Shown: positions 377 to 21,274 of the stretch, piece by piece | Layout: the number at the start of each line of letters is the position of its first letter | Position numbering within the stretch: the first letter of the stretch is position 1 | DNA from: a virus | Direction: 5' to 3' (one strand) | Length of the DNA: 28,663 bases | IMG/VR virus record: IMGVR_UViG_3300025326_000163 | Span: 1-28,663 of that record | The notes under the pieces: generated by a model | What the model was told of the DNA's origin: nothing | The model's input: the letters and a program-made list of their open reading frames with translations, nothing else | The model's database searches: none | Translations under genes and position numbers: made by a program

Positions 377-1125
377 TGTGCATTTTGCGCGGAAGCCTTT
401 CCTCTGAAATGAGGTTGTTGTGCGGCTACGGCACCGGCGACGGCTACGGCGACGGCGACGGCAACGGCAACGGCTACGGCTACGGCACCGGCGACGGCTA
501 CGGCGCCGGCGACGGCAACGGCAACGGCTACGGCGACGGCAACGGCAACGGCTACGGCAACGGCAACGGCAACGGCAACGGCTACGGCAACGGCAACGGC
601 TACGGCAACGGCACCGGCGACGGCAACGGCGACGGCAACGGCAACGGCTACGGCTACGGCACCGGCAACGGCAACGGCTACGGCGACGGCAACGGCTACG
701 GCTACGGCGACGGCAACGGCAACGGCTACGGCAACGGCTACGGCGACGGCAACGGCAACGGCAACGGCAACGGCTACGGCGACGATAGCGATAGTATTAT
801 CTACTGGATGCAATCACTTCCAATGCTTGACCCGGCAATAGACAAAGCCGGAGCGATTTTAGCTTACTGGCTATCCAACGCAGATGGGACTCCGGCTAAC
901 GGTGGCAGTGGCACAAAAGCGAGGGTTGGTCTTGTCGAGGAAATTTCAGGACCACTCAAAATTTGCACAAAAAACGCCTTACACGGAACACTCAAACCTC
1001 CGAAATGGAGTGGCGAGCGCGTATGGATCGTTGCTCTATACCCGCCCTTTCAGTTTCAGGAAGATAAGATTGCCTCGCTCAGACGAGAATTTATTGCTAG
1101 TTGTAACTTTAGCGGAGGAAACTAA
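376..1125 (+). CDS. Gly-X dipeptide-repeat protein with conserved C-terminal domain
   Basis: The start ATG overlaps the upstream stop. The 249-residue product has a 16-residue leader, then residues 17-136 made of exactly 60 Gly-X dipeptides where X is only Asn, Tyr, Asp, Thr or Ala. A C-terminal domain follows (about 137-249) with DPAIDKAGAILAYWLS, ALHGTLKPPKWSGERVWIVAL and a final LRREFI. I recall this C-terminal domain in other phage and metagenomic proteins with variable N-terminal repeats, but know no function. The other frames through the repeat are open only because of its composition. The frame used here is the one that runs into the non-repetitive domain and ends next to a gene with a strong Shine-Dalgarno. 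Confidence 0.75.
   Translation: MCILRGSLSSEMRLLCGYGTGDGYGDGDGNGNGYGYGTGDGYGAGDGNGNGYGDGNGNGYGNGNGNGNGYGNGNGYGNGTGDGNGDGNGNGYGYGTGNGNGYGDGNGYGYGDGNGNGYGNGYGDGNGNGNGNGYGDDSDSIIYWMQSLPMLDPAIDKAGAILAYWLSNADGTPANGGSGTKARVGLVEEISGPLKICTKNALHGTLKPPKWSGERVWIVALYPPFQFQEDKIASLRREFIASCNFSGGN
424..783 (+). repeat. 60-copy degenerate hexamer repeat (GGC-NNC)
   Basis: The 360-bp tract is an uninterrupted run of GGC followed by AAC, TAC, GAC, ACC or GCC. It lies in frame in the Gly-X protein. Its 5' part also holds a higher-order repeat: two successive units read GYGTGDGYG(D/A)GDGNGNGY. Copy-number change by slippage would keep the frame. Confidence 0.95.
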
Positions 1126-1126
1126 A

Positions 1127-1345
1127 ATGAACGCATTTGAACGCTACGAACGCACCAACGCCCTCGCTTTCAATCATGAGGACGAGGCATATCAGATGTA
1201 TCTCGAACAGAAACGTGACCGCGAAGAAGCCGAAGGCGAACTCGAAAATGTTTTGCGTTCGGTGGAACTTGGAAACGGAACGGTAACAGAAGTGAAACGG
1301 ATCCGGGAGCTAGTGAGGTTTCTTGGGATCAATTTACAGCTTTAG
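1127..1345 (+). CDS. Small charged helical protein
   Basis: This 72-residue protein starts at an ATG nine bases after a GGAGG. An upstream extension exists, but it only runs antiparallel through the preceding gene. The sequence is rich in Glu, Arg and Lys (YLEQKRDREEAEGELENVLR) and is probably largely helical, with a short hydrophobic end (VRFLGINLQL). It follows the Gly-X gene without a gap. I do not recognise the family. The coding call rests on the ribosome binding site and the operon spacing. Confidence 0.6.
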   Translation: MNAFERYERTNALAFNHEDEAYQMYLEQKRDREEAEGELENVLRSVELGNGTVTEVKRIRELVRFLGINLQL

Positions 1346-1356
1346 GAGGACATGGC

Positions 1357-1554
1357 ATGCCCGATACCAGGAAAACAAACAAAGCGAATGCACCGTTAGG
1401 CAACGCGGACGCTACGCCCGCGTTGAGCGCCGGGTTAGAGCGCACTGGAGAAACAAATGACCGCTGTTATGCTGATTTGTATAGGGATGACCTGGGGGAT
1501 GTGCCACACGGTTATACGACAAGAGTACCTGACGATGGCGGCCTGTATGGCTGA
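1357..1554 (+). CDS. Doubtful small ORF across an attC-like site
   Basis: An AGGAGG at 1344-1349 precedes two candidate starts. ATG 1352 gives only 15 residues; ATG 1357 gives 65 (MPDTRKTNKANAPLGNAD...). Residues about 14-29 are simply the translation of an attC-like hairpin, and the end overlaps the next small ORF in another frame. This may be a short cassette gene whose 3' end reads into the recombination site, or a remnant. No family is recognised. Confidence 0.3.
   Translation: MPDTRKTNKANAPLGNADATPALSAGLERTGETNDRCYADLYRDDLGDVPHGYTTRVPDDGGLYG
1395..1443 (+). other. attC-like site, degenerate left half
   Basis: GTTAGGCAAC (1395-1404) and GTTAGAGCGC (1434-1443) flank a perfect 8-bp hairpin, CAACGCGG (1401-1408) with CCGCGTTG (1418-1425). 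The right part, TTGAGCGCCGGGTTAGA, recurs almost exactly at 5189-5205. A canonical RYYYAAC on the left is missing, so this looks like a rearranged or decayed site. Confidence 0.45.
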
Positions 1555-1612
1555 ACGCGACTATCAACGACAGCACACTCCGAATCAGTCAACTAATTGG
1601 AGCCTGAAATGA
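1457..1612 (+). CDS. Small protein with hydrophobic N-terminus
   Basis: ATG 1457 has a GGAG six bases upstream and opens a 51-residue frame. It begins MTAVMLICIGMTWGMCHTVI, a possible short membrane segment or signal-like stretch, followed by a polar, Gln-rich tail. Its stop overlaps the start of the next gene (ATGA, 1609-1612), suggesting translational coupling. It overlaps the doubtful ORF at 1357 in another frame; the ribosome binding site and coupling favour this one. No family is recognised. Confidence 0.5.
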   Translation: MTAVMLICIGMTWGMCHTVIRQEYLTMAACMAERDYQRQHTPNQSTNWSLK

Positions 1613-2217
1613 AAGCACCCAAAGGCAGCAGTGGTGGATTTGAAAAGCATCCCCCTGGTCCGGCCGCAATAGTGTGTACTCGCATTATCGACCTTGGAAC
1701 GGTCCATAACGAGCGAAAGCTGAAAGACGAGCACAAAATCATGATCGGATTTGAATCGTCTGAACTTATGGATACCGGCGAGAATAAAGGGAAACCGTTC
1801 ATGGTGTTCGCGAATTTTAATTTCACCATGTACCAGAATTCTTTCCTGTGCAAATTCATCGAAGCATGGCGAGGCAAGCCGTTCGGCGACCAAGTCGATG
1901 CGGATGCTTTCGATTTCCATTTGCTGCTCGGGAAGCCGGCATTTGTGAATATTGTCCACAATGGGGATTACGTGAACATTCAATCTCCAATGCCACTGCC
2001 GAAGGGGATGATTCCGCCACATCCTGTTAGCGAGCTTCTGATTTTCGATATGCAGACACAAGATCATTCTGTGTTTGAAATGCTTTCGGAGAAAATGCGG
2101 GAACGGTTGAAGAAGGCAAAAGAATGGGGGAAGCTCGGTTCTAACGGTTCACTAGAACCGCCCGCCGGCCATCCGGCGTCCGAACCGCCGTTCGATGACG
2201 ATATACCTTTTAATTAA
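1609..2217 (+). CDS. Putative phage ssDNA-binding protein
   Basis: The 202-residue product starts at ATG 1609, six bases after a GGAG. An upstream in-frame TTG (1597) has no ribosome binding site. The body (PPGPAAIVCTRIIDLGTV, then KHKIMIGFES-like and WRGKPF blocks, and LLGKPAFVNIVHN) matches a phage family I recall in recombination/replication modules, with an OB-like strand pattern. The C-terminus ends PPFDDDIPFN, closely resembling the acidic DDDIPF tip by which bacterial SSB recruits partners. A recombination nuclease (3939-4832) and NinG (7651-8064) lie in the same region. Binding to single-stranded DNA is therefore inferred, not shown. Confidence 0.6.
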   Translation: MKAPKGSSGGFEKHPPGPAAIVCTRIIDLGTVHNERKLKDEHKIMIGFESSELMDTGENKGKPFMVFANFNFTMYQNSFLCKFIEAWRGKPFGDQVDADAFDFHLLLGKPAFVNIVHNGDYVNIQSPMPLPKGMIPPHPVSELLIFDMQTQDHSVFEMLSEKMRERLKKAKEWGKLGSNGSLEPPAGHPASEPPFDDDIPFN

Positions 2218-2248
2218 GCCCCTTTTAGTTTATAGTGTCCGGGGCTTA
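2215..2248 (+). terminator. Stem-loop after the ssDNA-binding gene
   Basis: TAAGCCCC (2215-2222) pairs with GGGGCTTA (2241-2248) around an 18-base loop. There is no U-run after it, so it is a weak or Rho-assisted terminator at best, or an mRNA-stabilising hairpin. The upstream stop codon is the first three bases of the stem. Confidence 0.35.
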
Positions 2249-2265
2249 CATAAATAGGGCACAAA

Positions 2266-2691
2266 GTGAGAAAGAAGGAATGTTTTAAGTGCAGTAAGGA
2301 AAAAAGCATTACCCAATTCTACCGCCACCCAAAAATGGGGGACGGTAGATTGGGAAAGTGCAAAGAATGTACCAAAAAGGACGTAGCTGAAAACTATCGG
2401 GCCAATAAGCCACATTATATAGAGTATGAAAAAAGGCGGTTTCAGAAATATGCCAGAAAAATAGCGGCTAAGTCTTACCAGATTAAAAGACGGAAAGAAA
2501 AACCAGGCAGGTATAAAGCGCAGACCACAGTTAGTAATGCCATCAGGGATGGAAGATTGCTGAGAAAGCCATGTGAGGTATGTAAAAATGTTAAATCTCA
2601 GGCCCACCACGATGATTACCGGAAGCCATTGGTTGTCCGATGGCTATGCCGAAAACATCATCTCGAACACCATGGGAAAATTGCTTACTAA
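2266..2691 (+). CDS. HNH-like zinc-binding protein
   Basis: The 141-residue protein has two metal-binding parts. An N-terminal four-Cys knuckle has CxxC pairs at 6/9 and 32/35. A C-terminal HNH-like part has C103xxC106, HH 114-115 in QAHHDDYRKP, and C128xxH131. The middle is very basic. The pattern AVSNAIRDGRL...PCEVC...AHHDDY...VRWLC is frequent in phages and usually annotated as an HNH endonuclease; nicking or structural DNA binding are both possible. GTG 2266 is assumed as the start. The only nearby purine-rich signal is weak, so translation may depend on the upstream gene. Confidence 0.6.
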   Translation: MRKKECFKCSKEKSITQFYRHPKMGDGRLGKCKECTKKDVAENYRANKPHYIEYEKRRFQKYARKIAAKSYQIKRRKEKPGRYKAQTTVSNAIRDGRLLRKPCEVCKNVKSQAHHDDYRKPLVVRWLCRKHHLEHHGKIAY

Positions 2692-2723
2692 AATGCATCG
2701 AATTTGGAATTAGAGGACAAGAA

Positions 2724-2957
2724 ATGAAAACCTGCCTTAAATGCCGGCATGCGGCGTGGGATCTAACCGCCGCAGGGAAGCTACATCCGTCAGGAGGCGG
2801 GCTGTGCAGATACCCGTGGAAGATGCCGCAACTCCCGGCCTCAATGTATTGGGTTGGGCACGAACCCAATCCGTGCGGCGGGTATATATCGCGCAAGAAT
2901 GATCTGAAAGACCATTGCTCATACTTTAATGAGCCGCCCGACAAGCAAGGAGACTAG
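2724..2957 (+). CDS. Small cysteine-rich phage protein
   Basis: ATG 2724, seven bases after AGAGG, gives 77 residues starting MKTCLKCRHAAW. The longer reading from 2640 runs back into the previous gene and lacks a ribosome binding site. Cysteines at the N-terminus (CxxC) and in CRYPW, NPCGGYI and DHCSYF suggest a small zinc-binding fold. I recall this arrangement (KC-HAAWD-TAAGKLHPSG, PWKMPQLPASMYW, CGGYI) as a hypothetical family in proteobacterial phages. The function is unknown. The gene ends four bases before the next start. Confidence 0.65.
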   Translation: MKTCLKCRHAAWDLTAAGKLHPSGGGLCRYPWKMPQLPASMYWVGHEPNPCGGYISRKNDLKDHCSYFNEPPDKQGD

Positions 2958-2961
2958 GAAC

Positions 2962-3219
2962 ATGGGCAAAACTACAGGCAAACCGACATCCCCCGGGCAG
3001 CAGGATAGCCCGTCCGCCTTAAATGACGGGGTAGATTGCGCTTGTGGAAACAGACAGCCGCACATGAGATTAGAAAGGTCTGGGATAATGTATTGCGTAT
3101 GGTGGGTTGGTTGCGAATTGCATGGGATGTTTAATTGCGGCGGAGGAGTGGTAGACGAAGCGTTAGCTGAGTACAGACGCATTTTACAGCTAGCTAAAAA
3201 ATTAGCACAATCTAACTAG
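2962..3219 (+). CDS. Hypothetical protein with CxC and Cys motifs
   Basis: ATG 2962 follows an AAGGAG at 2947-2952 and gives an 85-residue protein. The first 25 residues are polar and probably disordered. A Cys-containing core follows (DCACGNRQPHM, MYCVWWVGCELHGMFNCGG), then a helical tail (ALAEYRRILQLAKKLA). The cysteines could bind zinc. The stop TAG (3217-3219) directly follows ATCTAAC, which has the form of an attC-type RYYYAAC end. No family is recognised with confidence. Confidence 0.6.
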   Translation: MGKTTGKPTSPGQQDSPSALNDGVDCACGNRQPHMRLERSGIMYCVWWVGCELHGMFNCGGGVVDEALAEYRRILQLAKKLAQSN

Positions 3220-3236
3220 TATTAGAGTTGGGTTTC
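3210..3236 (+). other. Stem-less cassette boundary
   Basis: ATCTAAC (3210-3216, RYYYAAC) is followed after only ten bases (TAGTATTAGA) by GTTGGGTTTC (3227-3236), the GTTRRRY start of the next unit. It has the two core sites of an attC but no stem-loop. AACTAGTATTAG (3214-3225) recurs at 3884 (one change) and 7279. Confidence 0.45.
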
Positions 3237-3248
3237 GGAGGTTCTTAT

Positions 3249-3428
3249 ATGCACGTTTACAGATTCTTGCTTCGGCTGTGGGGTACGCGCCACGCGAAGA
3301 GCAGAAGTTTCCGGCATCGCTGCAAGTTTGTTTGGGGATCACGATTATCCGAAAGCGTGAGTTACAAACTACTGGAAAAGTCTATTGAGTACGAGAAACC
3401 TAACGACAAGTTGTGCGGCGGCGCGTAA
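3249..3428 (+). CDS. Small basic protein in cassette-like unit A
   Basis: ATG 3249, seven bases after GGAGG (3237-3241), gives a 59-residue, Arg/Lys-rich protein (MHVYRFLLRLWGTRHAKSRS). TTG 3228 is a less likely start because it lies inside the GTTGGGT core. The gene nearly fills a unit bounded by GTTGGGTTTC (3227) and GAAACCTAAC (3395). The last eight residues are encoded by the attC-like stem and the stop lies in its loop, as is common for integron cassette genes. No family is recognised. Confidence 0.5.
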   Translation: MHVYRFLLRLWGTRHAKSRSFRHRCKFVWGSRLSESVSYKLLEKSIEYEKPNDKLCGGA

Positions 3429-3460
3429 GCGCCGTCCGAACGAACGCCGTGTTATACGGC
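3395..3460 (+). other. attC-like site between units A and B
   Basis: GAAACCTAAC (3395-3404) is the left core and GTTATACGGC (3451-3460) the right core. Between them is a 9-bp stem: 3416-3424 pairs with 3429-3434 and 3436-3438, with a GTAA loop and T3435 left unpaired. The left core complements the start of unit A (3227-3236) with a single G.T wobble. Confidence 0.65.
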
Positions 3461-3488
3461 ATTTGTAGTTTAACAAAAGGAGAAAAGT

Positions 3489-3875
3489 ATGAACACAGCA
3501 AGCGCAGTATTTATGTCTGTAATTGGGTTTGTTTTTCTGGTGCTGATTCTTATGTTCGGGCTTCCCGTCTACTCGGTTTGGCAGAAAGGATTAGCCGGAG
3601 AGGCCGAGTTAAAACAAGCTGAATGGAACAGGCAGATTGCCGTGCGTGAAGCCCAAGCACAATTCGACGCCTCGAAGTTAAAGGCACAGGCAGAGATTGA
3701 ACGCGCAAAAGGAAACGCCGAAGCCAACAAGATCATTGCCGGCGGGCTTGGTGGACCAGAAGGATATTTGCGGTATCTGTACATTGATGCGCTTTCGCAC
3801 AACAAGAACGCGCAGATTATCTATGTGCCGACCGAAGCCAACCTTCCGATACTTGAGGCTTCGAGACGCAAGTGA
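3489..3875 (+). CDS. Membrane-anchored SPFH-like C-terminal protein (unit B)
   Basis: ATG 3489 follows AAAGGAG (3476-3482). The 128-residue product has one N-terminal membrane segment (about residues 6-30, SVIGFVFLVLILMFGLPVY). A long charged helix follows (EAELKQAEWNRQIAVREAQAQ...AEIERAKGNAEANKI), then a short C-terminal part (YLRYLYIDAL, IIYVPTEANLPI). The helix and tail resemble the part after the SPFH/prohibitin domain of HflK-type proteins, without the SPFH domain itself. Phages carry such shortened forms; the role at the inner membrane is unknown. The gene sits in a unit whose ends, GTTATACGGCAT (3451) and ATGCCGTATAAC (3875), are perfect 12-bp inverse complements. Confidence 0.7.
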   Translation: MNTASAVFMSVIGFVFLVLILMFGLPVYSVWQKGLAGEAELKQAEWNRQIAVREAQAQFDASKLKAQAEIERAKGNAEANKIIAGGLGGPEGYLRYLYIDALSHNKNAQIIYVPTEANLPILEASRRK

Positions 3876-3938
3876 TGCCGTATAACTAGAATTAGGCCAC
3901 CTATTTCCTGAATATAATACACGAATCAGTCAACAATT
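3875..3938 (+). other. End of unit B plus recurrent leader element (copy A)
   Basis: ATGCCGTATAAC (3875-3886) is the RYYYAAC-type end of unit B (third base A instead of Y). Instead of a hairpin it is followed by TAGAATTAGGCCACCT, an AT-rich stretch, and CGAATCAGTCAACAATT ending one base before the next start codon. A second copy is at 7279-7324, and the CAGTCAAC part also occurs at 1586 and 11406. Confidence 0.6.
3891..3918 (+). promoter_or_regulatory. Possible sigma70-like promoter in the leader element
   Basis: TATAAT (3913-3918) is a perfect -10 box. The hexamer 16 bases upstream (ATTAGG, 3891-3896) is a poor -35. A start near 3926 would leave a leader of about 13 bases before ATG 3939, a gene with no Shine-Dalgarno. 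The other copy of the element does not conserve TATAAT, so this is tentative. Confidence 0.3.
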
Positions 3939-4832
3939 ATGATCTACACCAATAAGCGCGGACTACCAGAGGCGTATTGCAATGCAGTACGCCGACAGCC
4001 GTATGACAACGAGGGCACGCTATCAACCACGACCTTGATCCGTCCTCCTCAATTGGTGCAATTGGAGAAGAAACATTGGGATGAAATAGAAACCGATGTC
4101 GAGGATGCGCTTTGGAGTCTGGACGGTAGCGCAGACCACTATATCCTTGAACTTGCCAAAGACGCGGGCGATTACACCGAATTTCGGCTATTCTGGGAAA
4201 TGGATGGCGTGAGAATTTCCGGGAAACCGGATCTGTTGACAGTTTTAGGCGTGCTAGTGGATCATAAACGCACCTCAGTTTGGGTAATCAAGGATGCGCT
4301 GAAAAATGGCAAAGCTGAATGGGATCAGCAATTGAATATCAACGCCGAGTTGATTCGACTGAATAACGATTTCCTGGCGTATGCGAATTGTTCGCTGATG
4401 CCTGAACCCAGAGCATTAAGAGTTATCGCCCGGGCGCGTGACTGGCGGCCTTCCGAAGCCGCGAAATACGACGATTACCCGCACAAAATAGAGATCATCA
4501 AAATCGAAATGTGGCCGCGCGAAAAGTGCCAGGAATTCATTCGCGATCGGATAAGACTGCATTCGCTTGAAACTCCTCCGCCGTGCTCACTTGAGGAGCG
4601 ATGGGCCAAGCCCGGCCAGTGGGCGGTAATGGGCAAAAAGAAAGCACTCAGGCTGTTAGCGTCCGAAGAAGATGCCCTGCAATGGGCTTCGATTGAAGGG
4701 ATAGATAACCCGAAGATAGAATTCAGGCCGGGCGAATCATTTAAACGCTGCAAGGAAGGGTATTGTTCTGTGGCAAAATTCTGTCCTCAATTTAACGCCG
4801 AGCAAAATTCCGCCGAGCAATTGGATGAATGA
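3939..4832 (+). CDS. PD-(D/E)XK exonuclease with probable Fe-S cluster
   Basis: The 297-residue protein has the PD-(D/E)XK nuclease core: ISGKPDLL with Asp98, then VDHKRTS with Asp108 and Lys110, and a Gln-rich helix after it (DQQLN, about 129-133). Cys14 near the start and Cys271, Cys276 and Cys282 near the end (CKEGYCSVAKFC) reproduce the one-plus-three cysteine spacing of the 4Fe-4S nucleases Cas4 and AddB. It would digest DNA ends for phage recombination, probably with the ssDNA-binding protein at 1609-2217. ATG 3939 has no Shine-Dalgarno; it follows the AATCAGTCAACAATT leader element directly. The nuclease class is fairly sure; the exact partner is inferred. Confidence 0.75.
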   Translation: MIYTNKRGLPEAYCNAVRRQPYDNEGTLSTTTLIRPPQLVQLEKKHWDEIETDVEDALWSLDGSADHYILELAKDAGDYTEFRLFWEMDGVRISGKPDLLTVLGVLVDHKRTSVWVIKDALKNGKAEWDQQLNINAELIRLNNDFLAYANCSLMPEPRALRVIARARDWRPSEAAKYDDYPHKIEIIKIEMWPREKCQEFIRDRIRLHSLETPPPCSLEERWAKPGQWAVMGKKKALRLLASEEDALQWASIEGIDNPKIEFRPGESFKRCKEGYCSVAKFCPQFNAEQNSAEQLDE

Positions 4833-4837
4833 CTCCC

Positions 4838-4906
4838 ATGACCAAGACCAAGAAAGTAACCAAGCGCCGTAAAGGCCGGTCCGCACGAGCGAATGGTTGG
4901 GCGTAA
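4838..4906 (+). CDS. Possible 22-residue basic peptide
   Basis: ATG 4838 opens MTKTKKVTKRRKGRSARANG, ending at TAA 4904-4906 inside the cassette core GTTGGGCGT. It starts six bases after the nuclease stop, with no clear Shine-Dalgarno. It may be a real short basic peptide read through by coupling, or only the translation of half an attC-like site. Confidence 0.25.
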   Translation: MTKTKKVTKRRKGRSARANGWA

Positions 4907-4916
4907 ATGGAGGCAC
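4888..4916 (+). repeat. 29-bp cassette head repeat, copy 1
   Basis: This 29-bp segment recurs at 9674-9702 with one difference. It holds AGCGAATG, the core GTTGGGCGT (4896-4904), and a GGAGG Shine-Dalgarno that serves the gene starting at 4919. Confidence 0.85.
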
Positions 4917-4918
4917 AG

Positions 4919-5191
4919 ATGTACGGAATTTTACAACAGAAATACCTGGATTCGGTTGGTGGTGCAGGGCACCAAAGCGCAGTTGAATTGCTTGGTAAAT
5001 TCGACACTCTCTATGCCGCTGCGAATGCGTTGATGGTTGAGATTGGCATGGACGGAGAGGTTGATACCGGCAACCCAAAGATAGTGAAGATAGTGGCAGT
5101 AATGGATGCCCTGCATGATATCGACGACGGTAACCCATTGACGCCCAACGCAGAGCTAAGGCGCGAGCCGCGCAGCGGCGAGTCGCCTTGA
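4919..5191 (+). CDS. Hypothetical helical protein in cassette-like unit C
   Basis: ATG 4919, shortly after GGAGG (4909-4913), is chosen over ATG 4907 because the equivalent start in the sister unit at 9704 has the same spacing. The 90-residue product is mostly helical (YGILQQKYLDSVGGAGHQSA, then ANALMVEIGMDGEVDTGNP and IVKIVAVMDALHDIDDG). The last 13-15 residues come from the attC-like site and are probably dispensable. The unit is bounded by GTTGGGCGT (4896) and ACGCCCAAC (5141), perfect 9-bp inverse complements. No family or function is recognised. Confidence 0.6.
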   Translation: MYGILQQKYLDSVGGAGHQSAVELLGKFDTLYAAANALMVEIGMDGEVDTGNPKIVKIVAVMDALHDIDDGNPLTPNAELRREPRSGESP

Positions 5192-5208
5192 GCGCCGGGT
5201 TAGAACGC
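5141..5208 (+). other. attC-like site between units C and D
   Basis: The left core is ACGCCCAAC (5141-5149), containing a perfect RYYYAAC. The right core is GTTAGAACGC (5199-5208). AGCTAAGGCG (5154-5163) pairs with CGCCTTGAGC (5184-5193) apart from its last base, leaving G5190 unpaired. Inside it, CCGC and GCGG form a second stem. An unpaired base in an otherwise paired L arm is the hallmark of attC sites read by integron integrases. Confidence 0.7.
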
Positions 5209-5210
5209 GA

Positions 5211-5525
5211 ATGCCGATACGGCCCGAGAACAAAGCACGCTACCCGGCAGATTGGAAACTGCGAAGCCGGTTTGTGCGGCACTACCGAGCAAAGAACCGC
5301 TGCGAGTGGTGCGGAGCCGAGAACGGACAACCGCACCCAGTAACAGGCAGCACGGTTGTTCTGACCACGGCCCATGTGTGGGACGACAGACCGGAAGCGG
5401 CAAGCCTCTTAAACCTTGCCGCGCTCTGTCAGAAGTGCCACAACGGGCACGACGCCAAAGCCAGGCAAGAGAGACGGAAGGAACGATTGAGGCACGAGAG
5501 TGGACAAGATGTTTTTGCGTTCTAA
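5211..5525 (+). CDS. HNH-type endonuclease-like protein (unit D)
   Basis: The 104-residue protein has a compact Cys/His arrangement: C31xxC34 (CEWCGAENG), a His in TTAHVWDD (His55), and C73xxC76HNGH, followed by a basic Arg/Lys tail. This resembles phage HNH nucleases, with His55 the likely catalytic residue. ATG 5211 lies three bases after the core GTTAGAACGC; no strong Shine-Dalgarno is visible. The stop TAA (5523-5525) is within the unit's end, GCGTTCTAAC (5517-5526), which perfectly complements its start over 10 bp. It could act as a homing-type nuclease or a packaging cofactor; no partner is evident. Confidence 0.65.
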   Translation: MPIRPENKARYPADWKLRSRFVRHYRAKNRCEWCGAENGQPHPVTGSTVVLTTAHVWDDRPEAASLLNLAALCQKCHNGHDAKARQERRKERLRHESGQDVFAF

Positions 5526-5607
5526 CGGTGTTTTCAGGCGCACAGCCGATGATCCTAGATAGGGCGCGGCACTTTCTCGCGTCGCCTGGAAAACATTGTT
5601 ATGCCTC
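5517..5607 (+). other. attC-like site between units D and E
   Basis: The left core is GCGTTCTAAC (5517-5526) and the right core GTTATGCCTC (5598-5607). TTTTCAGGCG (5531-5540) pairs with CGCCTGGAAAA (5583-5593) over 10 bp with one extra unpaired G. The roughly 40-base central part is loosely structured. Size and layout fall in the usual attC range. Confidence 0.7.
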
Positions 5608-5619
5608 GGAGGCTTGAAG

Positions 5620-5832
5620 ATGGATGACATTGAGTTTCGCTGGAAATGGAAGCCAGAGAAAGGCGCTTCTGGTTCGTACAAAAAGGAAAGACGGATTTTG
5701 CAGTACAGAGTACAACGAAGCCAGAAGATCGCAAACGGCGACTTTACTTTGCCGAAATGGGAGCCGTGGAAAGATGTGCAAGAGGCCCAACGCCGGAAAT
5801 CACGGGCCGGCGTAGCCGGTCCCGTGGATTGA
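5620..5832 (+). CDS. Small basic protein in cassette-like unit E
   Basis: ATG 5620 lies seven bases after GGAGG (5608-5612), which is only a few bases inside the unit start GTTATGCCTC. The 70-residue product is rich in Trp, Lys and Arg (MDDIEFRWKWKPEKG, YKKERRILQYRVQRSQKI) and might bind nucleic acid. The last 15 or so residues and the stop (TGA 5830-5832) are inside the attC-like hairpin. No family is recognised. Coding is supported by the ribosome binding site and by fitting exactly into the unit. Confidence 0.55.
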   Translation: MDDIEFRWKWKPEKGASGSYKKERRILQYRVQRSQKIANGDFTLPKWEPWKDVQEAQRRKSRAGVAGPVD

Positions 5833-5848
5833 CTTGTTAGCAGGCAAA
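5782..5848 (+). other. attC-like site between units E and F
   Basis: The left core is GAGGCCCAAC (5782-5791); the right core is GTTAGCAGGCAAA (5836-5848). The stem pairs 5799-5811 with 5815-5819, 5821-5826 and 5828-5829, leaving T5820 and G5827 unpaired, with a three-base loop. The left core matches the complement of unit E's start in 8 of 10 positions. Confidence 0.7.
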
Positions 5849-5851
5849 CAA

Positions 5852-6436
5852 ATGCTGAGAGTATTGATAGCGTGTGAGTTTTCGGGGACCGTGCGACGGG
5901 CCTTTAACGATCTTGGCCACAATGCCTGGTCTTGCGATCTGCTGCCAGCCGAGGACGGCTCGGCTTACCACTACCAGACGGATGTGCTGGAGTTACTGAC
6001 ACGCACACAATGGGACTTGATGATTGCACACCCGCCATGCACACACTTGGCTGTAAGCGGAGCGCGGTGGTTTAAGGGAAAGCAGAAAGAACAGGCCGAG
6101 GCATTGGAATTTGTACAAAAGCTGATGGATGCCACAGTGCCAAGGATTGCGATAGAGAACCCGATTTCTATTATTTCCAGCCGGATACGGAAGCCGGACC
6201 AGATTATTCAGCCATTTGAATACGGACATCCCTACAGAAAAACGACTTGCCTATGGTTAAAAAATCTGCCAAGGTTGACTCCCACGGACATAGTTGAAGG
6301 GAGAGAGCAAAAATGCTGGAAAGAACCGCCACACCCAGATCGGTGGAAAAGAAGGTCAAGGACCTACGAAGGAATAGCCCGCGCAATGGCCGACCAGTGG
6401 GGTGGGTTGATGGGCGAATTGCCGCATCCAGAATAA
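5852..6436 (+). CDS. Cytosine-specific DNA methylase (phage type)
   Basis: ATG 5852 (MLRVLIACEFSGTVRRAF) is chosen over TTG 5834, which lies inside the GTTAGCAGG core. The 194-residue protein shows the S-adenosylmethionine-binding start LRVLIACEFSG, an Asp-containing strand (SCDLLPAEDG), the catalytic-type HPPCTHL motif with Cys63, and IENPIS, corresponding to the ENV-like motif of C5 methylases. It is shorter than restriction-linked methylases, as usual for phage forms, which may mask DNA from host restriction. Its present C-terminus (PPHPDRWKRRSRTYEGIARA) overlaps the homing endonuclease gene; a second, diverged copy of that C-terminus lies after it (6878-7030). It is the main gene of cassette-like unit F. 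Confidence 0.75.
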   Translation: MLRVLIACEFSGTVRRAFNDLGHNAWSCDLLPAEDGSAYHYQTDVLELLTRTQWDLMIAHPPCTHLAVSGARWFKGKQKEQAEALEFVQKLMDATVPRIAIENPISIISSRIRKPDQIIQPFEYGHPYRKTTCLWLKNLPRLTPTDIVEGREQKCWKEPPHPDRWKRRSRTYEGIARAMADQWGGLMGELPHPE

Positions 6437-6885
6437 CCGGGTTAGCTAATCGTGTACACGGGCATTCATCACCAGAACATCGAACAGCAACATACAGGTC
6501 CTGGGAAACAATGCGCGCAAGATGTAGAAACAAGCACGATCCTTCGTATCAACTATACGGTGGTCGTGGAATTAAAGTGTGCAAACGTTGGGATAGCTTC
6601 ATCATGTTCCTGAAAGACATGGGGGAGCGCCCACTGAACACAACAATAGATAGAAAAAACTGCAATGGAAATTACAAGCCCTCCAATTGTCGCTGGTCAA
6701 CGCCGAGCGCGCAGCAAAGAAACAAACGTAACAACAGACTTATTCAGTTTCGAGGTGAGATCATGCCTCTTGTAGCTTTATCAGAGTTAAGCGGTGTCCC
6801 ATACCACAGACTTTGGGAGCGCATAGTTCGTAGAGGATGGAGCGTTGAATTAGCCATATCGAAAAAGAGCCAGGCTTATGCGTAG
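6313..6885 (+). CDS. HNH-type homing endonuclease inserted in the methylase gene
   Basis: The conserved core YRSWETMRARCRNKHDPSY, YGGRGIKVCKRW and DRKNCNGNYKPSNCRWSTP is typical of phage free-standing HNH homing endonucleases. The C-terminal part (MPLVALSELSGVPYHRLWER) looks like the helix-turn-helix target-binding module that often follows. ATG 6313 has GGGAG nine bases upstream and gives 190 residues including an AT-hook-like GRPVGW; GTG 6397 or ATG 6511 are shorter options. The first 124 bases overlap the methylase end in another frame. It probably cuts methylase genes lacking the insertion and spreads by repair. The family is fairly sure; the start is not. Confidence 0.75.
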   Translation: MLERTATPRSVEKKVKDLRRNSPRNGRPVGWVDGRIAASRITGLANRVHGHSSPEHRTATYRSWETMRARCRNKHDPSYQLYGGRGIKVCKRWDSFIMFLKDMGERPLNTTIDRKNCNGNYKPSNCRWSTPSAQQRNKRNNRLIQFRGEIMPLVALSELSGVPYHRLWERIVRRGWSVELAISKKSQAYA

Positions 6886-7030
6886 TTCGCCGCCAGGACC
6901 AGACCGGTGGAAGGAACGAAGCCGCACTTACGCAGGCATTGCGGCTGCGATGGCAGCACAGTGGGGTTTGCCTGCTAACGCCCTGCGTGAGCCGCACGCC
7001 GGAAACAAAGACGAGGAGTCCCTGAAATGA
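6878..7030 (+). pseudogene. Displaced original C-terminus of the methylase gene
   Basis: The frame from ATG 6878 reads MRSSPPGPDRWKERSRTYAG then IAAAMAAQWGLPAN. Residues 5-28 parallel the current methylase C-terminus (PPHPDRWKRRSRTYEG, IARAMADQWG) at protein level, with clear DNA divergence. This is what remains when a homing endonuclease inserts near the 3' end of a gene and brings its own version of the last codons. The segment includes the unit F end TTTGCCTGCTAAC (6967-6979). Its stop overlaps the next start, so it may still be translated as a 50-residue peptide, but it has no independent function I can infer. Confidence 0.65.
6967..6997 (+). other. End of cassette-like unit F
   Basis: TTTGCCTGCTAAC (6967-6979) is the perfect 13-bp inverse complement of the unit start GTTAGCAGGCAAA at 5836-5848. 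A short hairpin, GCGTG with CACGC, follows, but no right-hand GTTRRRY core is seen, so the site looks truncated. Confidence 0.6.
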
Positions 7031-7275
7031 CCGAAGAAAAGAAAGCAGCAGATGGCGCATCGGAAGGCGTGTCGGACTCGACGCAGTTGTTGGGCTACCC
7101 AGCAACCCATACCGTGCATTGGCCATCAGGGCCGGTAGATGCTTGTGAAAAGCACGCTAAACAATTAGCTGCTTTCGGTCGCCACCTTGGCGTTCACATT
7201 GCCGTAACAGTGGCACCTGACAACGCTCAGTGCTACAACTGCAAGCACGAAGCCGGATTGCCAAATAGAGAGTAG
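7027..7275 (+). CDS. Hypothetical phage protein with C-terminal CxxC
   Basis: The 82-residue product begins at an ATG that overlaps the upstream stop (ATGA) and has a GAGGAG about ten bases upstream. After a polar N-terminus it has HTVHWPSGPVDACEKHAKQL, a helix (AAFGRHLGVHIAV) and AQCYNCKHEAGLPNRE. The two cysteine blocks (ACEKH and CYNC) probably hold a metal. I recall similar small proteins with W-P-x-G-x-V-x-A-C-x-x-H in phages, without known function. The gene ends at the second copy of the leader element. Confidence 0.6.
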   Translation: MTEEKKAADGASEGVSDSTQLLGYPATHTVHWPSGPVDACEKHAKQLAAFGRHLGVHIAVTVAPDNAQCYNCKHEAGLPNRE

Positions 7276-7324
7276 TCCAACTAGTATTAGGCCACCTGGA
7301 ATTACTACACGAAATCAGTCAACA
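7275..7324 (+). other. RYYYAAC end plus recurrent leader element (copy B)
   Basis: GTCCAAC (7275-7281) is a perfect RYYYAAC. It is followed by TAGTATTAGGCCACCT, a short AT-rich part, and CGAAATCAGTCAACA directly before ATG 7325. It matches the element at 3884-3938 apart from a 5-6 base length difference in the middle. No complementary GTTGGAC start was found upstream. Confidence 0.6.
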
Positions 7325-7654
7325 ATGAGCATATCCGAACAGCGCGCCGAGCAGGCTTTGCGATATCTGGCCGAGACCGATGCCGAATGCGCTCGTCTGG
7401 AAAGCTACTTCAATGGATTGGACCGGATGAAAAGCCCGGTACGCTCAGAGGCGTTCAATGCTTCATTGAAGAATTCAAATGGCGAGCGAGATCATGAATC
7501 TTATGCCTCGATGTCGTATAAAAACCATCTTGCCGCGATGGCATTAGCCGAAGAAGACTATCTCAAAGTGAAATTAAAACGTGAGACAGAGACGCTGGTT
7601 TGGGAACACTGGAGATCGGTGAACAAAAATAAACGGGAAGGGGTCGTAGTGTGA
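7325..7654 (+). CDS. Hypothetical phage helical protein upstream of ninG
   Basis: The 109-residue product is mostly helical and charged (SEQRAEQALRYLAETDAECA, then an Arg/Ser-rich loop and a second helix ending LVWEHWRSVNK). ATG 7325 has no Shine-Dalgarno and is preceded directly by the AATCAGTCAACA element. The 3' end overlaps the GTG start of ninG (GTGTGA), so translation is coupled. Its position suggests a role in the recombination module. The family is not known to me, though proteins of this size with a similar central RMKSPVRSEAF block occur beside phage recombination genes. Confidence 0.55.
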   Translation: MSISEQRAEQALRYLAETDAECARLESYFNGLDRMKSPVRSEAFNASLKNSNGERDHESYASMSYKNHLAAMALAEEDYLKVKLKRETETLVWEHWRSVNKNKREGVVV

Positions 7655-8064
7655 AAAAGAAGAAGCTAAAAAAACTTCCAACCCTGAAAAATACTCTATG
7701 GAAACTCATGTCCAGAGTAGTACGCCAGGTTTATGCCAACCATGACGGGCATGTAACATGTGTGTGTTGTAACCGAGGCTATCACTGGAAAGAATTGGAC
7801 GCTGGACATTTCATCCCAAGATCGAGAGGAGCTGGAGTATATTTCGACTGGTTCAACGTACATCCGCAATGCAAGGCATGTAACAAGCCGCTTTGGAATG
7901 GCGAAATGGGAAAGATTTGGTATTACGAGTGGATGCTTTCCACCTATGGCTCGGAGGAAATAGATCGGCTGAAACGGTTATCTCATGGAACCGGAAAATG
8001 GGATCGTGGCTGGCTGGAAGAACAGATCGAACATTATAAGGCGTGCGAACTTGAATTATCATAA
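7651..8064 (+). CDS. ninG: NinG/Rap-type recombination nuclease
   Basis: The 137-residue protein carries the diagnostic NinG block: a C37xxC40 pair, YHWKELDAGHFIPRSRGAGV, and HPQCKACNK with C74xxC77. In lambda, NinG (Rap) is a structure-specific endonuclease that cuts branched recombination intermediates; the metal-binding Cys/His set and the GHFIPRS motif support the same role here. It is shorter than lambda NinG (about 200 residues), as many phage homologues are. GTG 7651 overlaps the upstream stop. With the PD-(D/E)XK nuclease and the ssDNA-binding protein it forms a recombination set. Confidence 0.85.
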   Translation: MKKKKLKKLPTLKNTLWKLMSRVVRQVYANHDGHVTCVCCNRGYHWKELDAGHFIPRSRGAGVYFDWFNVHPQCKACNKPLWNGEMGKIWYYEWMLSTYGSEEIDRLKRLSHGTGKWDRGWLEEQIEHYKACELELS

Positions 8065-8281
8065 CCTGAACCCGTTTCTCCGAAGACCGGACCAGATTCT
8101 GGAAGCGAAAGAATGGTATACCATGGGCTGCGGATCGTGCGGGAATCATGTCTTGAAACGAGACAAAACGGCGTATCATTGCTCGATGTCAGTCCAGGAA
8201 TATCCTGGGTTAGACAACAAGACCTGTTTACTATGGCGAAGGAAAACCAAAACGACTGGAGCGTTAGAATATGGAAAATGA
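8051..8281 (+). CDS. Small zinc-knuckle-like phage protein
   Basis: The frame encodes LRRPDQILEAKEWYTMGCGS followed by CxxC, YHCSMS and KTCLLW. This is a four-cysteine pattern I recall in short phage proteins beside ninG that start with a charged helix. TTG 8051, nine bases after AAGG and overlapping the ninG end, is the most likely start; ATG 8123 would drop the helix. The stop overlaps the next start region (8271). The function is unknown, perhaps a structural zinc-binding protein. The start is uncertain. Confidence 0.5.
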   Translation: MNYHNLNPFLRRPDQILEAKEWYTMGCGSCGNHVLKRDKTAYHCSMSVQEYPGLDNKTCLLWRRKTKTTGALEYGK

Positions 8282-8546
8282 AAAAGGTGTGCCAGTAAAA
8301 AACTACTTTAAACTACGCGCCAATTCTGGCGAGAATTTCCAAATTACACCGGATGGGCGGATTTTTTGGGCGCAGCGCGAAGTAGAGACGGACGATGAAT
8401 TTCGCGTGGCGATGGTTGAACTGAAAGATGCTTTAAGGGTTGAGTACACCATTCGGCTCAATGGGTTTATCAGTCTGCAAGATGCAACCCAGGAACTGGA
8501 TACACAGGCAACCACGATAGAAAATAGAGCCTCCAGTTTGCTGTGA
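8271..8546 (+). CDS. Hypothetical protein
   Basis: This 91-residue protein starts at ATG 8271, about ten bases after a GGAG, inside the end of the previous gene. It reads MENEKGVPVKNYFKLRANSG, a strand-rich part (NFQITPDGRIFWAQREVETD), then helices (FRVAMVELKDALRVEYT and DATQELDTQATTIENRASSL). A strand-rich start with a helical tail is all that can be said. Its stop overlaps the GTG start of the next small ORF, consistent with a translationally coupled series. No family is recognised. Confidence 0.55.
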   Translation: MENEKGVPVKNYFKLRANSGENFQITPDGRIFWAQREVETDDEFRVAMVELKDALRVEYTIRLNGFISLQDATQELDTQATTIENRASSLL

Positions 8547-8656
8547 GCGCCGATCCCGACGACTGGTGGAAAGCCGATGCGTTGCGAATACGCGCTCATG
8601 GGATACGAACTGCTATCAATGTATTGATGAATATGGAGACCGAGAAAGGAGATTAA
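8543..8656 (+). CDS. Small coupled protein, 37 residues
   Basis: GTG 8543 overlaps the upstream TGA (GTGTGA pattern, as at ninG) and opens 37 residues, MSADPDDWWKADALRIRAHG and on to MNMETEKGD. The DDWWKADALRIRAHGIRTA stretch looks like a genuine amphipathic helix. The stop directly precedes a further start with a strong Shine-Dalgarno. Coupling and amino-acid composition support it; the function is unknown. Confidence 0.45.
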   Translation: MSADPDDWWKADALRIRAHGIRTAINVLMNMETEKGD

Positions 8657-8659
8657 AAA

Positions 8660-8779
8660 ATGGAAATCACAAGAGCACAACTATTTAACATGGCGGCAAC
8701 CATTATGGTGGTGTCATGGCAAACCCAGCTAACGCACATTTATCAAACGACCAGTACGGACAGCAAATGGCACTTATAA
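8660..8779 (+). CDS. Small protein, 39 residues
   Basis: ATG 8660 follows AAAGGAG with eight-base spacing, one of the best ribosome binding sites in the region, and opens MEITRAQLFNMAATIMVVSW then a polar tail. The N-terminal half is moderately hydrophobic. A second ORF (8716-8838) overlaps in another frame, so one of the two may be a shadow. No family is recognised. Confidence 0.4.
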   Translation: MEITRAQLFNMAATIMVVSWQTQLTHIYQTTSTDSKWHL

Positions 8780-8838
8780 ATGTAATGTATTCGATTGAGC
8801 AAACCATGGTGCAAAAAAGAATTATGGTTGTTGCCTAA
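8716..8838 (+). CDS. Possible small overlapping protein, 40 residues
   Basis: ATG 8716 opens MANPANAHLSNDQYGQQMAL then INVMYSIEQTMVQKR and VVA, ending at TAA 8836-8838 exactly within an attC-like GCCTAAC. That is where the other cassette genes end, which is its main support. The ribosome binding site (GGTGG) is weak and the ORF overlaps 8660-8779 in another frame. Confidence 0.35.
   Translation: MANPANAHLSNDQYGQQMALINVMYSIEQTMVQKRIMVVA
8829..8838 (+). other. Solitary RYYYAAC core
   Basis: GTTGCCTAAC ends the small ORF and has the form of a cassette end. Its exact inverse complement, GTTAGGCAAC, is at 1395-1404, about 7.4 kb away; a nearer partial match (GTTAGACAAC) is at 8209. No stem-loop follows. 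It may be a remnant. Confidence 0.35.
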
Positions 8839-8870
8839 CGCCGTTTTAAAATGTATTCGTAGGGGAAACC

Positions 8871-9083
8871 ATGAACGAAGAACAACGAAGCATGACAGAT
8901 GAAAACGCCGACGCTTGGTCAATGATTGCTCCCGTGCATCAAATACAACGACTGACCGACTGGGCCAACATGCTTGAGGCGCGGGTGAAAGAATTTAACC
9001 CGCAATATAGGGCATATCCTTGGGGGCGCAACGCGCGTCCCCTACAAAAAACAATCGACAAACGAAACAATGAAACTAGGTAA
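8871..9083 (+). CDS. Hypothetical protein, 70 residues
   Basis: ATG 8871, five bases after AGGGG, gives MNEEQRSMTDENADAWSMIA followed by HQIQRLTDWANMLEARVKEF and a basic end. The central part is probably an amphipathic helix. The C-terminal PWGRNARPLQK is encoded by a GC-rich hairpin (GGGGGCGC and GCGCGTCCCC, about 9021-9042). CCCCTAC in its right arm complements GTAGGGG at 8859, so the gene may sit in a variant of the cassette layout. The stop overlaps the next start. No family is recognised. Confidence 0.5.
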   Translation: MNEEQRSMTDENADAWSMIAPVHQIQRLTDWANMLEARVKEFNPQYRAYPWGRNARPLQKTIDKRNNETR

Positions 9084-9654
9084 TACCAGAGATGCAATTC
9101 ACGATGCCTTGGCATGGGGATATTTGCAAAAAAACAATGGGTTTATCGAATACATGACCTATCTTGCCAAGATCGACAAATCGGGATTCTCACGGGATAA
9201 TACGATGGATTTCCTTGAAGCTGGCTATATCTGTGCGGCTATCAATATCCTCCCAGGTCATTTGGGGGCTTGGCTCAAATTCTCCTATGGCCCAGAGGAT
9301 TCCAGAACAATACAATCCATGCTTGCCTCTCATTTACGATTTCAGCTTTTCCCTATCTCCAATCCGAAAAAACATTACCGCATGATCGCAATTGCCGAAA
9401 CTTCGCTCGAAGGGTATCGCTTGCGGATTCATCAAAACCGGGATTTACCGCTACAGATTTATGCCGAGAGATCGGGAGTGTGGCCGGCGAATTGGGATCG
9501 GGATGGGTGGGAAAAGAGGAAAGATGAGATACACGACACAATCAGGAATTGGGATGCGGAAGGAGTAGGACAGATTTCCAGGATGGTGAAAGCATTGCGG
9601 GGAGATTTGGAAGGGCAAAGACCGGCAGAGGTCTTGTCGGAGTTAAGAGCCTGA
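9070..9654 (+). CDS. Phage protein, possible late antitermination (Q-like) factor
   Basis: The 194-residue protein begins MKLGNTRDAIHDALAWGYLQ and contains AGYICAAINILPGHLGAWLKFSYGPE, then a long basic, Trp-rich C-terminal half (WPANWDRDGWEKRK). The size, the LGAWLKFSYG block and the position near the end of the early operon recall Q-type antitermination proteins, which let RNA polymerase read into late genes. The resemblance is weak and the late operon here is on the other strand, so this is only a candidate. ATG 9070 overlaps the previous gene and has no Shine-Dalgarno. Otherwise hypothetical. Confidence 0.4.
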   Translation: MKLGNTRDAIHDALAWGYLQKNNGFIEYMTYLAKIDKSGFSRDNTMDFLEAGYICAAINILPGHLGAWLKFSYGPEDSRTIQSMLASHLRFQLFPISNPKKHYRMIAIAETSLEGYRLRIHQNRDLPLQIYAERSGVWPANWDRDGWEKRKDEIHDTIRNWDAEGVGQISRMVKALRGDLEGQRPAEVLSELRA

Positions 9655-9673
9655 TATCTTGAATCTCATTTAT

Positions 9674-9702
9674 AGCGAATGGTTGGGCGTAAACGGAGGC
9701 AC
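9674..9702 (+). repeat. 29-bp cassette head repeat, copy 2
   Basis: This differs from 4888-4916 at one base. It carries the core GTTGGGCGT (9682-9690) and the GGAGG (9694-9698) for the gene at 9704. The genes that follow the two copies are unrelated. Confidence 0.85.
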
Positions 9703-9703
9703 T

Positions 9704-9892
9704 ATGTATTACCAGATATGTCCGAAGTGTGACGGCCAAGGAGTTGTGTCAAAGCCGCCATACGTTGCCGGTGACGTGCACCAGTGGACATCAACATGTA
9801 CATCGTGGACGTGTGATGTTTGTCGCGGACAAAAAGTTTTATTGGTTCCGTGCGTGACGCCCAACGTTCTGGATGAGCCGCGCCGCAAATGA
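9704..9892 (+). CDS. DnaJ-like zinc-finger protein (unit G)
   Basis: ATG 9704 follows the GGAGG of the repeated cassette head. The 62-residue protein has two CxxCxGxx-type repeats, CPKCDGQG and CDVCRGQK, the signature of the DnaJ central zinc finger, with a polar linker between them. Such mini-DnaJ zinc proteins occur in phages with no established role. The unit starts at GTTGGGCGT (9682) and ends at ACGCCCAAC (9857-9865), perfect 9-bp inverse complements. The last nine or so residues lie beyond this core. The stop overlaps the next start (ATGA). Confidence 0.65.
   Translation: MYYQICPKCDGQGVVSKPPYVAGDVHQWTSTCTSWTCDVCRGQKVLLVPCVTPNVLDEPRRK
9857..9865 (+). other. RYYYAAC end of cassette-like unit G
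   Basis: ACGCCCAAC complements the unit's start GTTGGGCGT (9682-9690). No convincing stem-loop or right-hand core follows; the next gene begins 24 bases downstream. Confidence 0.5.
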
Positions 9893-10053
9893 AGAAACAG
9901 GAAACAGCGCAACGTAACCGGCGTCGGCTCCAGACCGACAAGATTGTGAAGTATGTTCTCAGCAAGCACCTTACTTGCGAGCATGACAACATGCACGACT
10001 GTAACAGGTGTTTGGCTCGCTGGATAAGAGAGGCATTAGCCAAGTTTGCCTAA
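9889..10053 (+). CDS. Small basic Cys/His protein
   Basis: ATG 9889 overlaps the previous stop and encodes 54 residues: a basic N-terminus (KKQETAQRNRRRLQTDKIVK), then HLTCEHDNMHDCNRCLARWI and a helical end. The Cys/His cluster (C, H, H, C, C) could hold a zinc ion. It may bind nucleic acid. No Shine-Dalgarno is visible; translational coupling is likely. No family is recognised. Confidence 0.5.
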   Translation: MKKQETAQRNRRRLQTDKIVKYVLSKHLTCEHDNMHDCNRCLARWIREALAKFA

Positions 10054-10054
10054 A

Positions 10055-10183
10055 ATGAACAGGAAACGTGGGTTTCTCGTGGTTCGCAAATCCTGGGGTT
10101 GGGGGGTCGTTAGACTGCGCCGCCGACGAATACGAAGGATGTTAGTATGGCGTAAGATACGCGGAAAATGGAAGTTTAAATAG
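10055..10183 (+). CDS. Very basic 42-residue protein
   Basis: ATG 10055 begins one base after the previous stop. The product, MNRKRGFLVVRKSWGWGVVR then LRRRRIRRM and a Lys/Arg-rich end, is extremely basic with Trp residues. It could bind DNA, RNA or membranes. No ribosome binding site is seen beyond coupling, and such composition can occur by chance. Confidence 0.35.
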   Translation: MNRKRGFLVVRKSWGWGVVRLRRRRIRRMLVWRKIRGKWKFK

Positions 10184-10219
10184 CGGGAGTAGGCCAGCGG
10201 CTGATGCTGATGTAAAGTT

Positions 10220-10243
10220 CCTGACAGATCGAGCCCTGTCAGG
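10220..10243 (+). promoter_or_regulatory. Hairpin upstream of the 10258 gene
   Basis: CCTGACAG (10220-10227) and CTGTCAGG (10236-10243) form a perfect 8-bp stem with an 8-base loop, ending 14 bases before ATG 10258. There is no long U-run, so it is more likely an operator-like dyad or a translation-control hairpin than a terminator. Confidence 0.4.
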
Positions 10244-10257
10244 CTTTGGATTCTGCC

Positions 10258-10809
10258 ATGGCTAGAACCGACGAAGAAAAGGAAGCACTCAAAGTCTTTC
10301 TACGTGAAAGACTCCTCATTGTCTGGCGCGGTCAGGTAGATGACTGGGAGGATGGGGTAAACTGGATCGCGAACAAGACCGGCTATTCAGTCGAGTTCTT
10401 CGAGAAAACGATTATCCCGTATCTGTGCGATTGGAACAGGCAGAAAGATTTGGCCGATGCCAAGGGCAAGTTCATGGCCGAGCTTCCGAATATCGGCCCG
10501 TTCATACGGAAGCAGAAGTACAAGAACCCTTTACCGTATCAGTTCACTGAACTAAAAGCGGGGATTCATGAAACCAATCAAGCAAAATGTCATTGCGGAA
10601 GAACAGCGGCCATTCTTGCCTTTGGAGAGTATCTTTGCTCATGGCACTACTCTGCGAAATACTGTAATGCCGGGAATACAGGACTCGACAGGCTTAGAAA
10701 AGCCTATCAAAACAGGATCCCGGCAAAGCCCGAAGAACAACTATTCGACTATCTGCGTAGATCGCTTCACATCGGAGCAAGAAAGAAAGCTGGTATGGTA
10801 TCGGATTAA
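10258..10809 (+). CDS. Hypothetical protein with CxC/Cys-His motif
   Basis: ATG 10258 (MARTDEEKEALKVFLRERLL) is preferred over TTG 10246. The 183-residue protein is helical with a central Cys/His part: AKCHCGRTAAILAFGEYLCS followed by WHYSAKYC. This probably binds zinc. It starts a small group of genes after a hairpin-bearing gap. Downstream of its stop the other frame looks coding (see the frame-change note at 10735-10900), so the real protein may be longer. No family is recognised; DNA binding is a guess. Confidence 0.55.
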   Translation: MARTDEEKEALKVFLRERLLIVWRGQVDDWEDGVNWIANKTGYSVEFFEKTIIPYLCDWNRQKDLADAKGKFMAELPNIGPFIRKQKYKNPLPYQFTELKAGIHETNQAKCHCGRTAAILAFGEYLCSWHYSAKYCNAGNTGLDRLRKAYQNRIPAKPEEQLFDYLRRSLHIGARKKAGMVSD

Positions 10810-10887
10810 AGATTGGTCTCCTGATCTGGCTGGGTTTTTGTCTTCAATAGGAAAGACATTCGGCAAACCTGAGAAAACGAGGATCAA

Positions 10888-11130: not shown

Positions 11131-11168
11131 GGATGGGAACGAAGAGTCAGAGCGGGAGGTTATATTAT

Positions 11169-11793: not shown

Positions 11794-11795
11794 GA

Positions 11796-12188: not shown

Positions 12189-12209
12189 AGGCACGTCCCG
12201 CAGTTCATC

Positions 12210-12407: not shown

Positions 12408-12528
12408 ATGAGGCTTCCCTTGTGTAATTAGCATAAATGGAAGATGTGCCGCCAGAGAAATTAGTTTTTCTACCATTAGACATTTTCCTGAGTTGCTGTG
12501 AATTGTGTGGTGGTAGTTTGGTCATTGC

Positions 12529-13347: not shown

Positions 13348-13366
13348 TTCATTTGCTCCTTAGTTA

Positions 13367-14593: not shown

Positions 14594-14617
14594 GGCGGTT
14601 CTCCTGATTTTTCCCGT

Positions 14618-21271: not shown

Positions 21272-21274
21272 TGG

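Follow-up and report, generated by a model that had tools for sequence, protein, structure and literature searches.

The window analysed in this study, meaning the whole stretch of DNA, is an entire IMG/VR virus record (IMGVR_UViG_3300025326_000163) of 28,663 bases. The replicon is a tailed phage, with TerL (phrog_2) and a portal protein (phrog_1216/332) encoded in the window. A second, longer record, G002 (39,503 bp), comes from an almost identical phage. It overlaps the window at both ends and adds the missing 10.8 kb, and the genome is therefore essentially complete and circularly permuted. This longer record breaks exactly within a low-complexity tandem GGCNAC repeat with a Gly-Asn/Asp/Tyr ORF (420–785), which reveals the permutation. 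At 21184–21425, a 91-bp repeat that holds a gene start is present in copies that are 99% identical and 136 bp apart, each adjoined by a GGGGGCG..CGCCCC hairpin. Inspection of ORFs suggested a Radical-SAM-like protein at 27555–28496 (minus strand) and, in L049, a run of sugar/glycosyl genes (epimerase, aminotransferase and glycosyltransferases; 5620–11588); a 306-aa ORF of L049 (3291–4211, minus strand), within the 10.8 kb outside the window, resembles by eye an IS1595/ISXO2-type transposase. Profile searches of G000, G002 (39.5 kb) and G003 identified neither a tyrosine recombinase (PF00589) nor an integron integrase (TIGR02249), and an Rfam search of the window returned zero matches.

The left part of the window contains cassette genes that all lie on the plus strand and are separated by attC-like hairpins. 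Gene C (4919–5191), preceded by the Shine–Dalgarno (SD) sequence GGAGG, encodes a protein without assigned function; gene D (5211–5525) encodes an HNH endonuclease (phrog_1571); gene E (5620–5832), also with SD GGAGG, encodes 70 aa without assigned function and has its stop codon within site E; and gene F (5852–6436) encodes a member of a DNA methyltransferase family (phrog_757). The last cassette gene (7027–7275) starts within the loop of site F. A separate one-gene block carries a gene at 3489–3875 without a Pfam match. Homologues of the methyltransferase at 78 loci showed no cassette association elsewhere. Between 6313 and 6967, an HNH-like ORF lies 3′ of the methyltransferase gene, and the 3′ end of that gene (DRW..RSRTY.GIA.AMA.QWG) is repeated downstream with 71% identity (6362–6403 versus 6926–6967), a layout suggestive of an insertion that brought in a homing gene and an additional gene end.

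A covariance model (CM) built from 24 attC bottom strands, exclusively of bacterial genomes and class-1 plasmids, matched three sites of the main array, namely site C (5143–5205; E = 3e-9), site D (5520–5604; E = 0.0074) and site E (5785–5842; E = 6e-9), as well as the site of the one-gene block (3398–3457; E = 1.3e-6). Site F (6973–7095) was found by an explicit attC detector and is missed by the covariance model because of its long terminal loop, which holds the SD GAGGAG and the ATG (7027) of the next gene. Several partial sites are also present: a degenerate remnant at 1398–1440 with an intact R″/L″ half (E = 0.11) has 25 bp in common with site C; a truncated half-site forms the left end of the main array at about 4853–4904, where GTTGGGC stands beside CATTCGCT in a 29 bp repeat (D10); and a second truncated half-site at about 9667–9690, followed by SD and ATG, lies farther right. 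For all of these the attC top strand is assigned to the minus strand, and the recombinogenic bottom strand of site C accordingly reads on the plus strand.

On the plus strand, site C reads GCCCAAC...GTTAGAA, its R′ box GTTGGGC on the minus strand being GCCCAAC at 5143–5149; site E reads GCCCAAC...GTTAGCA; and site D reads TTCTAAC...GTTATGC, with R′ GTTAGAA on the minus strand. Sites C and E thus have one perfect R box each and D a near match, and the TAA stop codon of the HNH ORF sits within a box of site D. All three sites contain GTT, spacers of 4–6 bases, an L stem of 9–10 bp and a single unpaired G, located on the plus-strand right arm. The first-pass annotation had proposed a contiguous head-to-tail array with perfect or near RYYYAAC motifs, short spacers, a stem with an extrahelical base and GTT at three boundaries (5141–5208, 5517–5607 and 5782–5848). 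These features are all present, the units do run head to tail, those boundaries are off from the true sites by no more than 3 to 6 bases, and scoring of the extrahelical base gave a consistent result. The three sites it recognized are real, but the array is larger, including site F, the 3398–3457 site and the half-sites at about 4853–4904 and 9667–9690; that annotation also did not recognize the replicon as a phage.

Both the covariance model and DNA folds recovered an L″/L′ stem with unpaired central spacers, and folds of the plus strand gave the L stem with an unpaired base in sites C, D and E and in the 3398 site. The folding check proposed earlier therefore held for the hairpins, although the strand to fold is the plus strand of the window. 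Stems in the phage attC set covary in an alignment that was itself fitted to the model. Fold energies relative to shuffled sequences were unremarkable for site C (z = -0.85) and lower for D and E (z = -2.8 and -2.4); energy alone does not discriminate attC sites and was rejected as a test. The explicit detector found four sites in the left 11.4 kb, where dinucleotide shuffles gave a mean of 0.11 and a maximum of 2 (0 of 100 reached four). The covariance model gave zero matches in the structural half of the window, and the single detector match among structural genes (14131–14202) is likely due to chance. Sites C, D and E are genuine attC hairpins, and with at least two attC sites close together and no intI the array qualifies as a CALIN.

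Three copies of CTAATWCTA/GTT with variable right sides are present in the window and may resemble attI1. Read on the minus strand, they form putative attI-like junctions with the cut between the two parts, namely GGCCTAATACTA-GTTGGAC at the array end (7279–7293), GGCCTAATTCTA-GTTATAC (3884–3898) and CTAATACTA-GTTAGAT (3214–3225). The repeat to which they belong (AACTAGWATTAGGCCACC...CACGAA(A)TCAGTCAACAAT; 3214–3225, 3884–3941 and 7279–7325) is located at the right ends of cassette blocks, before core phage genes, and only the first 12 bases of the copy at 3214 are common with the others. These repeats could be read as attI sites on the minus strand and as promoters on the plus strand (TATAAT near 3913), and judging from their sequence the two longer copies (3884 and 7279) also look like promoter leaders.

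The relationship between sites and genes differs from that of the canonical cassette, in which the ORF is sense to the attC top strand and attC lies at the 3′ end of the gene. Extrahelical bases are defined on the R″–L″ arm (PMC2727003), and they occupy this arm in the window when the minus strand is read. On the gene-sense strand the extra base lies on the right arm, whereas in 15 of 15 class-1 attC controls it is the left arm of that strand that carries the unpaired base. Ordinary sites have a C directly before GTT, which appears here only in the minus reading, and the covariance model, which describes the bottom strand, matches the plus strand at the 3398 site as well as at C, D and E. These three signs agree that the recombinogenic strand is the coding strand of the cassette genes, with the attC top strand on the minus strand and the genes on the plus strand, opposite to ordinary cassettes. 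It follows from this orientation that the plus strand is the one to fold and that the crossover box is the left AAC box, not the right GTT. The earlier proposal that the extrahelical base sets strand choice was correct in that the base is present at C, D and E but missed this orientation, assuming instead that ordinary cassettes of usual polarity (attC top strand in gene sense) had been captured from a bacterial integron. Two features that also occur in ordinary arrays would fit such a capture: stop codons fall within or close to the left AAC box (TTCTAA of the HNH gene is one example), and ORFs begin shortly after the right GTT. The extra base on the wrong arm, the strand matched by the covariance model, the C before GTT, a crossover in the left box of a related contig and the SD asymmetry across phages (both described below) make it very unlikely.

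Two natural comparisons define exact cassette boundaries. Contig L008 is 99.98% identical to window positions 6977–17671 (10.7 kb) and does not contain 5149–6978, that is, the HNH, ORF E and methyltransferase cassettes. Its junction joins 5148/5149 directly to 6978/6979 in the AAC boxes of sites C and F, which is G/TT on the minus strand, as inverted polarity predicts. The left piece of L008 is short (about 160 bp) and differs by one SNP and a 9 bp indel in its gene C allele; L008 therefore represents a different array state and need not be a simple excision product or a descendant of the window array. In the second comparison, L142 and L166 (the latter carrying a terminase) have one cassette in common that is 82% identical, with both ends within 2–6 bp of G/TT cuts, unrelated flanks and genes antisense to the attC top strand. 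A search with the exonuclease protein for close relatives returned only near-identical records, and therefore no empty-site relative was found. As far as contig comparison can tell, the junctions in L008 and L142/L166 are of the kind that an integron integrase acting at the R′ box would leave.

Without an integron integrase, the same differences could in principle arise if similar hairpins recombine homologously or illegitimately, a route that has been offered for the origin of phage CALINs (Qi et al., PMC9892861). The mosaic nature of phage genomes and the fact that this phage encodes no integrase are consistent with such a process. However, sites C and F have only AACGC in common at the L008 junction, both ends of the L142/L166 cassette fall at G/TT, and the attC sites are maintained with covarying stems, and we regard an origin by these routes as unlikely.

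The survey was based on a 15–17 base core of site C, searched in viral and bacterial collections, and on a second core searched in viral contigs; most contigs were found with these two attC-derived patterns, and the sample represents one broad attC type. At a CM threshold of E ≤ 1e-3 it comprised 149 viral and 271 bacterial sites; sites within one contig are not independent, and comparisons should rest on counts by locus. A polarity heuristic based on ORF length proved too weak for phages and was replaced by codon usage and then by a test for SD+ATG. According to codon usage, the genes ran opposite to the attC top strand in 35 viral loci, with it in five and tied in two; the bacterial loci were divided as 4 opposite, 38 same and 1 tied. 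Of 146 viral sites, 87 had SD+ATG leaving the R″ box on the bottom strand and 1 had it on the top strand; of 147 bacterial sites, the numbers were 6 and 26, respectively. Counted by locus, the inverted to ordinary ratio was 32:0 for viruses and 2:20 for bacteria. The two tests conflict in a few GC-rich loci (L157, L164 and L220), and the codon call for L220 is also against gene homology; the SD test is therefore trusted more. L157, L164, L156 and L159 are ordinary by codon usage and inverted by the SD test; L015, likewise ordinary by codon usage, has no SD. When loci were picked by the HNH protein regardless of attC, all 28 CM matches (six contigs) were on the strand of the HNH match. None of 26 contigs encodes an integron integrase above the curated cut-off. 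From these sequence-level tests, inverted polarity is general among the sampled phage contigs, which represent dozens of phages. One phage contig (L220; 3300017747_002940) contains 13 attC sites in 5.5 kb (302–5093), among the densest arrays seen, all on the HNH gene strand. In L139, L153, L157, L162, L164 and L167, nearly identical attC cores precede different genes in different phages, and the cores themselves comprise the first protein residues as well as SD and ATG, which lie in the loop.

Most of the signal might have come from contigs wrongly labelled as viral, which would in fact be bacterial integrons that hold reverse-oriented cassettes, since some surveyed contigs are short and without a terminase match. 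Bacterial loci retrieved by the same site sequence are nevertheless ordinary (20:2), TerL, portal or tail genes are present in the window, L166, L140, L154, L045, L162 and others, and the phage isolates PH101 and P12002L also read as inverted; mislabelling is thus extremely improbable as the main source. A different possibility is that the main present role of the hairpins is in phage mRNAs, as RNA leaders or insulators, and that recombination belongs only to their ancestry. Each hairpin does lie upstream of a gene on the coding strand, and SD and ATG are wholly within the site at 20/146 viral sites, because of which an additional role of the hairpin in mRNA is possible. Yet the extrahelical base, the R boxes and GTT are kept although no RNA role needs them, and related contigs have different cassette boundaries at the cut site. 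A mainly RNA-based function is in our judgement quite unlikely, and the leader and recombination roles may coexist.

CALINs have been described in virulent phages (Qi et al., 2023; PMC9892861), where five of six phage attC sites recombined with attI1 through IntI1 and phage attC bottom strands were recombined by IntI1 at rates like those of attCaadA7. The arrays studied here resemble those: both belong to tailed phages, carry attC but no intI and in some cases include methyltransferase genes. Different from our reading, no polarity inversion was reported in that study, and TJE1 and PH101 were called typical arrays (PMC9892861). Based on annotated genes, TJE1 is a phage with ordinary polarity, whereas the PH101 site (record 76,529–76,585, genes on the minus strand) and the P12002L site (30,005–30,059) read as inverted; the CM scores of these two are weak (E 0.02–0.3), and the sites read here may differ from those assayed (PMC9892861). 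Compared with class 1 cassettes (aadA, dfrA, cmlA and others), the phage sites have the same R and L boxes, UCS, extrahelical base and G/TTRRRY, but a class 1 cassette has its ORF first, in the direction of the top strand, and attC behind it, whereas a phage cassette has attC ahead of the ORF and the bottom strand as coding strand. In VCR mutants with inverted extrahelical bases (Bouvier et al., 2009; PMC2727003), the strand used flips and the crossover shifts to the R″ box, as for the phage sites and L008 relative to the genes; those mutants are a laboratory construct, and the phage inversion is a natural and common state. Bottom-strand orientation also matters for cassette excision in sedentary chromosomal integrons (PMC11023631); there the inversion concerns the entire array and its direction relative to replication, whereas in phages it concerns the ORF relative to attC within each cassette. 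We found no description of cassette-polarity inversion in the open-access literature.

The second phage core was found in one of about 670 bacterial genomes sampled, that of a Simplicispira. Its array of seven attC sites adjoins the bacterium's own intact integron integrase (intI), and a single one of the seven is phage-type and is the sole site with SD+ATG on the bottom strand. The phage-type cassette carries a 54-aa gene antisense to the array, whose protein gave no phage match. This looks like a phage-type cassette within a bacterial integron, and the direction of transfer would presumably be from phage to bacterium.

Taken together, we consider it very probable that the window carries an integrase-less CALIN of a tailed phage, with cassettes of inverted polarity whose coding strands are recombined by an integron integrase of the host or of another element in the cell. 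The attC bottom strand, which an integron integrase folds and cuts, is the coding strand of the cassette genes, and the mobile unit in gene sense would consist of attC, then SD and start codon (sometimes in the attC loop), the ORF and its stop. With the crossover in the AAC box directly upstream of the hairpin, phages could acquire, lose and trade whole cistrons, each of which would arrive with its own hairpin leader and ribosome-binding site, and new cassettes may enter at the attI-like junctions (CTAATWCTA/GTT) at the 3′ end of each block. Our preferred reason for the inversion is that the arrays might be fixed antisense in phage operons, so that only reverse-oriented cassettes would be expressed; as a result, the cassette pools of phages and bacteria would be functionally separate although still able to recombine. 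A broader proposal also seems somewhat favoured, namely that phages keep a separate, polarity-inverted cassette pool in which attC provides the 5′ leader and start region, and that host integron integrases shuffle this pool, from which cassettes leak into the integrons of bacteria, their genes ending up antisense and silent there.

The rule usually taken for granted, that the ORF is followed by attC and is sense with its top strand, is reversed in the sampled phage arrays, and this reversal across dozens of phages suggests that phages keep their own version of the gene-swapping system. Surveys that assume ordinary polarity would mis-assign the boundaries of phage cassettes. Phage-type cassettes are a possible source of the reverse-oriented cassettes in bacterial integrons, and polarity may serve as a label that separates phage-type from bacterial cassettes in any array, by which gene exchange between phages and integrons becomes testable.
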